From a virus: a stretch of DNA of 20,697 nucleotides. The stretch lies in IMG/VR virus record IMGVR_UViG_3300017917_001170, positions 1 through 20,697 of that record; one strand, 5' to 3'. The position numbers and the translations under genes were made by a program. Shown here in pieces: positions 1 to 10,841 of the stretch. The notes beneath the pieces were generated by a model. The model worked only from the letters and a program-made list of their open reading frames with translations. It did not search any database and was not told the origin of the DNA. How positions within the stretch are numbered: the stretch's first letter is position 1; every line of letters starts with the position of its first letter.

Positions 1-17
1 ATATTAAAAGTTTTCAT
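1..17 (-). CDS. start of an unidentified gene downstream of dnaK (partial)
   Basis: An ATG whose first base is at 17 reads leftward off the window and begins MKTFN. It has a strong Shine-Dalgarno sequence, AAGGAG, seven bases upstream. It follows dnaK in the same direction and carries a leader hairpin like the one before dnaK. The product cannot be identified from five residues. A co-chaperone such as DnaJ would be a natural guess after dnaK, but nothing visible supports it. Confidence 0.55.
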
Positions 18-48: not shown

Positions 49-71
49 GAAAGACCCATTAGGCATCTTTC
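49..71 (-). promoter_or_regulatory. leader hairpin between dnaK and the next gene
   Basis: On the minus-strand RNA, GAAAGA (71-66) pairs with UCUUUC (54-49), with a G-U pair and two C-G pairs above, a bulged G, and a UAAU apical loop. The core TGCCTAATGGG is identical to the hairpin at 1999-2023, but the stem differs and still pairs. The 5' arm encodes the last residues of DnaK, and the TAA stop lies in the loop. A GTTTTT run follows, then the shared segment ATCTTGCTTAA and the Shine-Dalgarno of the next gene. It could be an mRNA-end stabiliser, a protein-binding operator or a leaky terminator. Confidence 0.6.
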
Positions 72-1966
72 TTAACTTCAGTAAACTCAGCATCCACTAC
101 GTCTGCTGGTTTTTCTGAATTAGTTTCAGCACCTGGTTCAACTGTTGCTGATTCTGCAGCTTGTTTAGCAGCAAACAGAGGACCTGCTACATTACCTATG
201 GCAATTAAAGCATCACTTATCTTTTCAATGTCGTCTCCTTTAGAGACTTCTTCTAAGGTGCTTAATGCTTCTTCAATTTTAGCCTTTTCATCATCAGTAA
301 TTTTACTACCGTGTTCTTCAAGAGCTTTCTTTACTCCCCATATCTGATGATCTGCTTGGTTCTTACTGTCAATCAATGCTTTGGCTTTGGCATCTGCATC
401 TTTGTTGGCTTCTGCTTCGTCTACCATGCGTTGAATTTCTTCTTCAGTTAAACCGCTGTTGGCCTTGATAGTGATCTTGTTTTCTTTGTTGGTTTTCTTG
501 TCTTTGGCACTGACTTTTAAGATACCGTTAGCATCAATGTCCAAGGTAATTTCAATCTGAGGCATACCGCGAGGTGCTGGGTCAATACCTTCAAGATTAA
601 ATTCGCCAAGTTTCTTGTTATACTGTACAAGTTCACGCTCACCTTGGAAAATAGCCACTGTAACTGCTGGCTGATTATCTTCAGCAGTACTGAACACCTG
701 TGTAGCCTTAGTAGGAATAGTTGTGTTTTTCTTAATCAACTTAGTCATCACACCGCCCATGGTTTCGATGCCTAGGCTCAGCGGAGTAACGTCTAGCAGT
801 AGTACGTCTGTTTTATCACCAGCTAGCACAGCGCCTTGAATGGCAGCACCAACTGCTACTGCTTCGTCTGGGTTAACATCCTTGCGTGGTGCCTTGCCAA
901 ACAGTTTCTCAACTGCTTCTTGTACCTTAGGCATACGTGTTTGACCACCAACCAAGATGACTTCATCAATGTCGCTAGCAGTAACACCTGCGTCTTTTAG
1001 GGCTACCTTACATGGCTCTATACTGCGTTGAATTAGTTCATCAACTAGACTTTCAAACTTAGCACGTGTAATAGTCACGTTTAAGTGCTTAGGACCTGAG
1101 GCATCGGCAGTTACGTATGGTAAATTCACTGTAGTTGAAGATGAACTTGATAGTTCGATCTTGGCCTTTTCTGCTGATTCTTTTAGGCGTTGTAAGGCTA
1201 AGACGTCTTTGCTTAGATCAACACCACTTTCTTTCTTGAATTCTTCAATTAAGTAGTCCATGATACGTTGGTCAAAGTCTTCACCACCTAAGAATGTATC
1301 ACCGTTAGTGGCCAATACTTCAAATTGTTTTTCACCGTCTACATTGATAATATCAATAATACTGATATCAAATGTACCACCACCTAGGTCATACACAGCA
1401 ACCTTGCGATCTTGTTTATCTGCTTTATCAACGCCGTAGGCTAAGGCAGCCGCTGTAGGTTCGTTGATAATACGTAGAACTTCTAGGCCAGCAATAGTAC
1501 CTGCGTCTTTGGTTGCTTGACGTTGCGCATCATTAAAGTAAGCTGGTACCGTAATCACAGCCTGTGTTACTTCGTGTCCTAGGTAGTCTTCAGCAGTTTG
1601 CTTCATCTTTTTAAGAACTTCTGCTGAAATCTGAGGTGGTGCTAACTTCTTATCGTCAATTTCAACCCATGCGTCACCATTGGTGTTTTCTACAATCTTG
1701 TAGGGCATTAGGTCAATGTCTTTTTGTACAGCCTGCTCTTTGAACTTGCGTCCAATTAAGCGTTTAGCTGCGTATACTGTTTTCTTTGGATTAGTAACTG
1801 CCTGACGTTTAGCACTAGCACCAACTAGAATTTCATCGCCGTAGGCAACGATACTAGGTGTAGTGCGAGCACCTTCGTTATTTTCAATTACTTTAGGTTT
1901 GTTGTTTTCAAGAATGGCCACACATGAGTTTGTGGTGCCGAGGTCAATACCGATGATCTTAGACAT
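59..1966 (-). CDS. dnaK: molecular chaperone DnaK (Hsp70), phage-encoded, full length
   Basis: This 635-residue protein matches bacterial DnaK (E. coli: 638) from end to end. It has the N-terminal nucleotide-binding signature IDLGTTNS, the DLGGGTFD phosphate loop, [11 protein letters not shown], and the interdomain linker VLLLDVTP near residue 390. The substrate-binding beta domain, helical lid and canonical tail [14 protein letters not shown] follow. ATP-driven cycles of binding and release refold or assemble client proteins, normally with DnaJ and GrpE, neither of which is visible here. The start is well supported by AAGGAG seven bases before the ATG. No truncation or lost motif is visible, so it should be active. 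From memory, stretches such as [28 protein letters not shown] and [11 protein letters not shown] resemble betaproteobacterial DnaK, which suggests capture from a host. It is preceded by a late promoter and a hairpin leader, so it is probably made late, perhaps for virion protein folding. Confidence 0.98.
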
Positions 1967-1998
1967 ATAGTTTCTCCTTAGTTAAGCAAGATCTAAAA

Positions 1999-2023
1999 TA
2001 TAGAGCCCATTAGGCACTCTATA
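1999..2023 (-). promoter_or_regulatory. leader hairpin upstream of dnaK
   Basis: A perfect 7-bp inverted repeat, TATAGAG (1999-2005) and CTCTATA (2017-2023), encloses CCCATTAGGCA. In minus-strand RNA the inner part can add a U-G pair and two C-G pairs under a UAAU loop. It is the counterpart of the hairpin at 49-71. It starts about where the late promoter at 2028-2035 should begin transcription (about 2022), so late dnaK mRNA would carry it at its 5' end. UUUUAGAUCUUGCUUAA and then the AAGGAG site follow. Confidence 0.65.
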
Positions 2024-2027
2024 CAAT

Positions 2028-2035
2028 TATTTATA
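2028..2035 (-). promoter_or_regulatory. T4-type late promoter for dnaK
   Basis: The minus strand reads TATAAATA, an exact match to the T4 late -10 box used by the gp55 sigma factor. The expected start is about six bases downstream, near 2022, giving a leader of about 56 bases with a 5'-terminal hairpin. The box is 62 bases upstream of the dnaK ATG, in a non-coding gap. Confidence 0.7.
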
Positions 2036-3138: not shown

Positions 3139-3167
3139 ACTATAAATATTGTATCACAAAATAACAA
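3139..3167 (-). promoter_or_regulatory. possible sigma70 promoter for the 3113-2066 gene pair
   Basis: The minus strand reads TTGTTA (3167-3162), a 17-bp spacer, then TATAGT (3144-3139), a 4/6 and 5/6 match. The start would be near 3132, 19 bases before the ATG. The -10 overlaps the late box on the opposite strand at 3141-3148, so the two promoters would compete. Tentative. Confidence 0.35.
3141..3148 (+). promoter_or_regulatory. T4-type late promoter for the radical SAM gene
   Basis: An exact TATAAATA lies on the plus strand 22 bases upstream of the ATG at 3171. The expected start is about 3154, leaving a leader of about 17 bases without a recognisable Shine-Dalgarno sequence. It serves a single plus-strand gene set among minus-strand genes. 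Confidence 0.65.
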
Positions 3168-6836: not shown

Positions 6837-6844
6837 TATTTATA
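6837..6844 (-). promoter_or_regulatory. T4-type late promoter immediately before the coiled-coil membrane protein
   Basis: The minus strand reads TATAAATA, then seven bases, then ATG at 6829. Starting about six bases past the box would give a leader of only about two bases. The box overlaps the inner arm of the inverted repeat at 6841-6861. Confidence 0.65.
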
Positions 6845-10295: not shown

Positions 10296-10528
10296 CCAAA
10301 AAATGCCTTAAAAATGCCAAAAGTTCCAATACTAATACTAATAAAGTTAACTAAAGTCTGCGGTTTGTTCCGTGTTCTAATACTCCATGTTAGGAAGCAG
10401 GCTGTGCCAAAAAAGAACACTACGATGTTCCATGGATAAACACTTGGGCCAACAGCATTTAGGCTGTGCCCTGCTATGACCAACGGAGCGCCAGTCCACT
10501 GTAGGATATCGTTAGTTGTTAATTTCAT
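10292..10528 (-). CDS. small multi-span membrane protein
   Basis: This is a 78-residue protein with hydrophobic segments at about 10-28, 33-51 and 59-76, separated by a basic turn (RTRNKPQ). Two or three membrane passes are likely. No motif identifies a function. Holin-like size and hydrophobicity are noted, but the middle segments and the early-type promoter do not favour a holin. It is preceded by promoter P2, whose predicted first base is the A of the ATG, so its mRNA should be leaderless. Its stop overlaps the -35 of promoter P1. Confidence 0.72.
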   Translation of the reverse strand: MKLTTNDILQWTGAPLVIAGHSLNAVGPSVYPWNIVVFFFGTACFLTWSIRTRNKPQTLVNFISISIGTFGIFKAFFG

Positions 10529-10534
10529 TATAAG

Positions 10535-10563
10535 AGTATAGCATCACATAACCAAAAAGTCAA
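10535..10563 (-). promoter_or_regulatory. sigma70-type promoter P2, leaderless geometry
   Basis: The minus strand has TTGACT (10563-10558), 17 bp, then TATACT (10540-10535). Six bases separate the -10 from the ATG at 10528, so the usual +1 (seven bases past the -10) falls on the A of the start codon. It lies back to back with P3. Confidence 0.78.
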
Positions 10564-10585
10564 GTGAACTTTAGTTTGACTTTTT
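10554..10585. repeat. inverted repeat formed by the divergent promoters P2 and P3
   Basis: AAAAAGTCAA (10554-10563) and TTGACTTTTT (10576-10585) form a perfect 10-bp inverted repeat around 12 bases. It consists of the two -35 regions with their T-runs. It may be simply two facing promoters or a dyad for a regulator of both. Confidence 0.7.
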
Positions 10586-10604
10586 CATTAACTGAGTATA
10601 TAAT
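10576..10604 (+). promoter_or_regulatory. sigma70-type promoter P3, leaderless geometry
   Basis: TTGACT (10576-10581), 17 bp, and a perfect TATAAT (10599-10604). The ATG at 10611 begins exactly seven bases after the -10, where transcription should start. No room remains for a Shine-Dalgarno sequence. It drives the plus-strand run starting at 10611. Confidence 0.82.
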
Positions 10605-10610
10605 AACAGT

Positions 10611-10841
10611 ATGAAAATCTTATTGGAACAAGAAGGCAGACATTTAAGAATGTTTGTAGTACACTCAGATACTCACGCAGATGACATGAGTTGGGCCGCT
10701 ACTATTGCTGACATGGATGCTGAACTTAAAGGTCGACAAGGTGTCAAACGTATGAGTTACGACACTTGGCACTGGGACCTGCGTCGGCGCAGAGAAGCAG
10801 AAGAATACATCACATATTTTTATTTGAAACACGGAAAATGA
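10611..10841 (+). CDS. small protein, member of the C-terminal-motif paralogue array
   Basis: This is a 76-residue basic protein (KILLEQEGRHLRMFVVHSDT). Its C-terminal part, WHWDLRRRREAEEYITYFYL, resembles a degenerate version of the pattern seen at the ends of several genes in 10.6-15.1 kb: an aromatic strand, a charged Glu/Asp turn, then an Ala-x-x-Phe-x-Leu helix. It is the first gene after promoter P3 and appears to be read from a leaderless mRNA. Its TGA overlaps the ATG of the next gene (ATGA). Function unknown. No DNA-binding or catalytic motif is visible. Confidence 0.68.
   Translation: MKILLEQEGRHLRMFVVHSDTHADDMSWAATIADMDAELKGRQGVKRMSYDTWHWDLRRRREAEEYITYFYLKHGK

Follow-up and report, generated by a model that had tools for sequence, protein, structure and literature searches.

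ROSE-like two-hairpin leaders of phage chaperone genes and their proposed recognition by phage Hsp20

Genes and features of the dnaK locus

The stretch of viral DNA analysed in this study (IMG/VR record IMGVR_UViG_3300017917_001170; 20,697 nucleotides, referred to here as the window) carries a dnaK gene and the start of a further gene on its minus strand. Each of the two genes is preceded by a leader with two hairpins, hairpin 1 (HP1) and hairpin 2 (HP2), and the leader of dnaK is itself preceded by a late promoter. In the direction of transcription, the features are:

2028..2035, minus strand: T4-type late promoter TATAAATA, exact match, 4 nt upstream of dnaK hairpin 1
1999..2023, minus strand: dnaK leader HP1; variable stem, U.G pair, bulged G, CC/GG, loop UAAU (from folding and covariation)
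1973..1991, minus strand: dnaK leader HP2; UCUU-G(bulge 1987)-CUU paired with the Shine-Dalgarno sequence AAGGAGA (1979-1973); ROSE-type motif
59..1966, minus strand: dnaK (Hsp70), 635 aa; Pfam HSP70, E=7e-256
49..71, minus strand: second leader HP1; overlaps the dnaK 3' end, with the dnaK stop TAA (61-59) within the loop
24..41, minus strand: second leader HP2; UCUU-G(bulge 37)-CUU paired with AAGGAGA (30-24)
1..17, minus strand: first codons of the following gene (MKTFN), truncated at the contig end; hsp20 by synteny, with only 5 residues visible

The gene after dnaK is assigned as hsp20 by synteny, since 44 distinct leaders from relatives show the same arrangement, dnaK followed by an hsp20 with this leader. 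The Hsp20 of the window phage itself extends beyond the contig end, and the Hsp20 residue data given below come from relatives. The overlap of HP1 with the dnaK 3' end is also seen in related phages, e.g., L120.

Structure and folding of the leaders

The two HP1 copies share the 11-mer TGCCTAATGGG (minus strand, 2016-2006 and 65-55), which at one mismatch or less has three matches versus 0.2 expected, a number that was reached in none of 100 shuffles. Their stems are different, TATAGAG/CTCTATA (2023-1999) and GAAAGA/TCTTTC (71-49), and each is perfectly paired; folded in isolation, both HP1s are better than dinucleotide shuffles (z of -3.1 and -3.6). An earlier note on this DNA had described two hairpins with a common segment and different, paired stems, and the positions, shuffles and folding bear this out. 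What it took for a shared loop is indeed the same 11-mer in both copies, but this 11-mer is not open: in the predicted fold it forms a U.G pair, a bulged G and two C-G pairs (CC/GG) around the terminal loop UAAU. Likewise, the U-run, the conserved segment and the AAGGAG that were said to follow are all present in the window (ATCTTGCTTAA and AAGGAG downstream of both HP1s), but the U-run (TTTTT after 71-49) is not conserved in relatives, and the conserved segment ATCTTGCTT is not a spacer. In the predicted fold it is the partner of the Shine-Dalgarno (SD) sequence AAGGAGA around a second bulged G; in the resulting HP2, the conserved TCTTGCTT pairs with AAGGAGA around this bulge. Each leader is thereby made up of two tandem hairpins with the common core Y-G-CY...RG-G. 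Kissing between the loop UAAU and CUUAA was considered and rejected, as no more than 3 bp would form and the loop sequence is freely variable.

By computed folding, the SD of dnaK is the most sequestered among 30 genes of the window. With nearest-neighbour folding, the probability that the SD of the dnaK leader is unpaired rises from 0.02 at 5 °C to 0.24 at 42 °C, a shallow thermal response that is no proof of thermosensing, given that the same method fails on the known E. coli ibpA thermometer. Since the energy model fails on this control, the thermal step of the mechanism proposed below rests on analogy. As in silico controls, two altered versions of the dnaK leader were also folded, and deletion of the bulged G left the dnaK HP2 locked; in Pseudomonas ibpA, it was shown experimentally that removal of the bulged G locks the hairpin (PMC3669281).

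Covariation

Covariation was assessed on 118 distinct leaders in an alignment fitted to the model, and a first, unfitted alignment gave the same picture. Across these leaders 96.1% of the pair cells pair, two-sided changes occur in 289 cells versus 83 in shuffles, and the covariation score is 0.385, compared with 0.13 for shuffles and at most 0.084 for slid partners. The signal comes entirely from HP1, where it is strong. HP2 is nearly invariant, which is what constraint by the SD would predict, and its pairs are each kept in 110-118 of the 118 leaders. The view in the earlier note that changed bases with kept pairing point to a selected RNA structure is upheld by these numbers and by the loss of the signal on sliding the partners; selection on the leader as an RNA structure is strongly supported.

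Distribution in phages and bacteria

With an exact DNA pattern, 39 further viral contigs were found, all with complementary stems of varying sequence and with the same motif, SD and start codon; the genes downstream of the pattern matches are nearly all hsp20 or dnaK. A covariance model (R1) built from 20 leaders gave matches upstream of dnaK and hsp20 in dozens of phages from IMG/VR, and among 83 loci scanned it placed the element before these two genes in nearly all and before almost nothing else. On the window, R1 matches the dnaK leader at 2024-1973 (63.5 bits) and the second leader at 73-24 (63.8 bits). Scans of whole records (24 viral contigs and Melnitz, 9-361 kb each) returned 1-4 matches each, the confident ones lying nearly all at hsp20, dnaK or groES, and one good match at a small protein without a known family. 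The earlier note had proposed such a covariance-model search and had named a lack of copies in relatives, or unpaired stems, as speaking against its claim; the opposite was found, namely many copies with paired stems.

A groES gene with a two-hairpin leader is present in five phages (L221, L222, L223, L228 and L229), and three chaperone genes therefore share the element. Weak R1 matches in L225, L226, L227, L230 and L232 (E>0.007) look like chance and were discarded. ROSE-like leaders also stand before small phage proteins (63-88 aa) that have no Pfam family and are phasin-like by eye (L224, L231 and L100:4687-4735); with R1, the leader in L100 reaches 57 bits and that in L231 is weak.

For cultured phages, a further 12 records were scanned and R1 matched the hsp20 leader in 10, among them S-PM2, P-SSM2, S-SM2, HTVC008M and Ettore; Melnitz likewise has a match, and S-PM2, P-SSM2, HTVC008M and Melnitz are T4-type phages. 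In most of these records hsp20 is the sole match of the model. Phosso gave no R1 match, and S-T4 gave a single weak one that is not at hsp20. By eye or by model, the layout of the hsp20 leader is found in S-PM2, P-SSM2, S-SM2, Bellamy, ACG-2014f, S-T4, S-CRM01, C48C1, AG-345-F15, HTVC008M, Melnitz, Ettore and Phosso. At or beside the match, the places in S-PM2, P-SSM2, S-SM2, S-CRM01 and Ettore are annotated as hsp20 or as an unnamed protein, and AG-345-F15 is unannotated. Cyanophages mostly have CUCGCUU in HP2.

In bacteria, R1 found the element in none of 80 dnaK loci, which are mostly betaproteobacterial, and acquisition of the leader from a host dnaK was rejected on this ground. A contig binned into a metagenome-assembled betaproteobacterium (L215) contains an hsp20 with the same leader and the loop CCTAATGG; the contig could belong to a phage, or the gene could be the host's own.

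Promoter context

A late promoter like TATAAATA, at one mismatch or less, was found for 51 of 58 dnaK leaders, compared with 20% of shuffled upstream regions. It lies mostly 1-7 nt upstream of HP1, which puts the HP1 of dnaK near the 5' end of the mRNA, and dnaK transcripts of the window would start at or just before HP1. None of 44 hsp20 leaders behind dnaK has such a promoter, nor does the second copy in the window. Two more TATAAATA late promoters of the window, at 3141 (plus strand) and 6844 (minus strand), have no hairpin leader; at 6844, the promoter and a TATAGAG..CTCTATA inverted repeat overlap. A generic leader of late phage mRNAs was rejected because the other TATAAATA genes of the window are without the hairpin leader and whole records hold only 1-4 matches. 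Elsewhere in the window (~10528-10611), the divergent genes at 10528 (minus strand) and 10611 (plus strand) share the inverted repeat AAAAGTCAA..TTGACTTTT, which may act as an operator or as a terminator for both genes.

Relation to ROSE elements and other RNA thermometers

Short ROSE-like RNA thermometers are recognised by a two-hairpin leader in which U(U/C)GCU faces the SD and a G is bulged (PMC3669281, PMC11342760). The motif reads UUGCU in the window and UCGCU in most cyanophages, with imperfect SD pairing in the last hairpin, the core pairs being kept in 111-118 of the 118 leaders. The base bulged opposite the SD strand is G1987 and G37 in the window, and among the 118 leaders it is G in 97 and A in 19. 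Two hairpins with the SD in the last agree with the two to four 5'UTR hairpins of ROSE elements, and the gene context of ROSE-like thermometers is found in most relatives, while the window gene is dnaK and copies at groES occur too. The leaders are ROSE-like by layout and motif and fall outside RF02523 as delimited. This identity was missed in the earlier note because the SD-sequestering HP2 was missed.

The Rfam model ROSE_3 (RF02523) aligns end to end with the leaders of Melnitz and L120, including UGCC..GGG of hairpin 1. Of 27 phage records, 8 have their chaperone leaders matched by this model, with E values of 1e-7 to 5e-4 and scores of 25-38 bits. Its curated cut-off of 43 bits is not reached, the best phage copy scoring 37.5 bits, and the window copies are not matched; none of the Rfam models reaches its cut-off on any tested phage copy. 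A metabolite riboswitch was rejected, there being no Rfam match and the gene set consisting of chaperones.

The short ROSE-like thermometers of Pseudomonas ibpA have the same two hairpins, the same U(U/C)GCU-SD pairing around a bulged G in HP2 and likewise a small heat shock gene; they have been validated, and hairpin 2 alone suffices (PMC3669281). In contrast to these, the phage leaders are also found on dnaK and groES, are combined with T4-type late promoters instead of sigma32, may have A as the bulge, and may overlap the upstream stop codon with HP1. The 5'UTR of E. coli ibpA contains a hairpin with the same core (ACGC-G-CCTGATGG-GTGT) and CTCGCTG..AGGAG, but has an extra middle hairpin, unlike the phage leaders. 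The RNA thermometers of lambda cIII, SPbeta blyA (fourU) and a Caudoviricetes sigma70 leader (PMC11182007) are likewise phage-encoded and translational; however, they control other genes and none is described as ROSE-like in PMC11182007. No description of ROSE elements in phages was found in the open-access literature. In a 2014 review, ROSE elements were "always associated" with small heat shock genes (PMC4166951), an association that was later widened to ABC transporters (PMC11342760); dnaK and groES are further departures from it.

The bulged base and residue 54 of Hsp20

Most phages have G as the bulged base and some have A, with joint changes in HP1, HP2 and the leaders of hsp20 and dnaK: HP1 and HP2 are G/G in 127 cases, A/A in 42 and mixed in 1, and the leaders of dnaK and hsp20 both have G in 67 cases, both A in 47 and are mixed in 2. 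The residue of Hsp20 that corresponds to position 54 of E. coli IbpA follows the same division, being Ala in 126 of 129 Hsp20s with a G bulge (Ser in 3) and Thr in 50 of 52 with an A bulge (Ser in 2). The two phages with mixed leaders (L237 and L240) are the two A-type phages with Ser54. Among 140 Hsp20 columns, position 54 is the only one that separates the bulge classes, with no other close, and no DnaK column separates them over all phages. When residue 54 is masked for tree building, about 4 changes of the bulge are needed (3-5 in bootstraps; 0 of 200 bootstrap trees with one). These switches are confined to a single region of the Hsp20 tree, and well-supported branches force only 2 of them. 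All A-type phages fall within a few hsp20 clades, and the matches were chosen by similarity.

Leaders with G and with A bulges occur together with a Ser54 Hsp20 in single genomes at L237:2450-2500 and L240:2450-2497, which are apparent evolutionary intermediates. In A-type dnaK leaders, e.g., L068:4955-4994, HP1 is shrunk to GAGC-AUAGU-GCUC, without the usual CC/GG core. Residue 18 of Hsp20 was rejected as a reader of the bulge, as it is Thr in 10 of 10 A-bulge phages of the first set but Arg or Gln in 11 of the larger set. The assignment of L034 and L035 as A-bulge proved to be a parsing artefact (CTTGCTTACTT).

E. coli IbpA binds its own 5'UTR, and repression needs Arg93 and the aromatic residue 34 (PMC10474464); in this protein the three positions are Ala54, R93 and Y34. 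In the Hsp20 of the relatives, residue 93 is Arg in 178 of 181 and Lys in 3, and residue 34 is aromatic (Tyr/Phe) in 181 of 181; residue 97 is R/K in most and partly conserved, and residue 98 is mostly not basic. Residue 54 and R93 lie outside the strands of an AlphaFold model of Hsp20 (pLDDT 71). For E. coli IbpA, no report of base-specific reading of the bulge or of a role of residue 54 was found. The simplest account of the link between bulge and residue 54 suggests direct reading of the bulge by Hsp20; an RNA contact between the two bulges could explain the concordance of HP1 and HP2, but not the link to residue 54. On balance, phage Hsp20 is more likely than not a base-specific RNA-binding repressor whose residue 54 (Ala/Thr, with Ser ambivalent) would read the bulge, G or A, of both tandem hairpins, one chaperone thereby controlling the translation of its own gene, dnaK and groES.

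Proposed mechanism and alternatives

The likely function of the leaders is that of a ROSE-like translational switch on phage chaperone genes (dnaK, and hsp20 by synteny), with phage Hsp20 as a proposed additional binder. In the cool, or when free Hsp20 is plentiful, HP2 would pair the SD with UCUUGCUU around the bulged purine, keeping translation low, and warming would open HP2. By analogy with IbpA, which binds its mRNA, the leader is probably also bound by the phage's own Hsp20. Hsp20 would bind both hairpins via the bulged purine and repress hsp20 and dnaK, and unfolded proteins would titrate it away and relieve the repression, as with E. coli IbpA on its own 5'UTR. Most of the contigs come from aquatic samples, an environment in which the signal may be something other than heat.

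Of the three guesses in the earlier note, the operator for a phage RNA-binding protein now stands first, given that changes of the bulged base go hand in hand with those of a single phage Hsp20 residue. That the leader is nothing but such an operator, a site for Hsp20 or another phage protein that senses chaperone demand (e.g., late capsid-protein load) with temperature being irrelevant, is nevertheless unlikely. The coevolution of bulge and residue 54, the late promoter that drives the dnaK copy and the proposal that hsp20 of T4-like cyanophages aids capsid maturation (PMC3037559) would all fit, but all ROSE thermometer features are kept, including the destabilising bulge against the SD, and both in bacteria and in vitro ROSE elements are heat-responsive on their own (PMC3669281, PMC11342760).

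It is slightly less likely still that the leader is solely an RNA thermometer, with HP2 melting in the absence of a protein reader and HP1 only aiding folding or protecting the 5' end. Such a thermometer accounts neither for the bulge of the thermally inert HP1 changing together with HP2 and with the leader of the other gene, nor for the bulge tracking a single Hsp20 residue, although layout and motif equal those of the validated Pseudomonas ibpA thermometers, in which hairpin 2 alone is sufficient (PMC3669281).

The other two guesses, a 5'-end stabiliser or a processing site, with HP1 shielding late mRNAs from decay, are improbable. No evidence for processing was found. HP1 may have stabilisation as an additional role when it stands at the mRNA 5' end, i.e., at dnaK, where it starts 1-7 nt after TATAAATA in most leaders, and the same role was suggested for hairpin I by the authors of PMC3669281. 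However, where hsp20 lies behind dnaK its copy is internal (a late promoter in 0 of 44), the late-promoter genes at 3141 and 6844 have no such hairpin, and a fixed bulge, SD pairing and a chaperone-only distribution are not needed for this role. An intrinsic dnaK terminator, as the U-run behind the window hairpin (71-49, then TTTTT) might imply, can practically be dismissed, given that the U-run is not conserved, the same hairpin precedes dnaK directly after a promoter, and the stems vary freely and are often A/U-rich.

Significance

The gene hsp20 is a cyanophage core gene. If the proposed translational switch with Hsp20 as an additional binder is correct, ROSE-like switches would be standard, and so far unannotated, in T4-like aquatic phages, and would extend to dnaK and groES. 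These phages would then encode a chaperone (heat-shock) regulon that works without a transcription factor. From the coevolution of a single base with a single residue it would become apparent how a small heat shock protein recognises its own mRNA, and this coevolution would give a reason for the conserved, so far unexplained hairpin 1 of ROSE elements.
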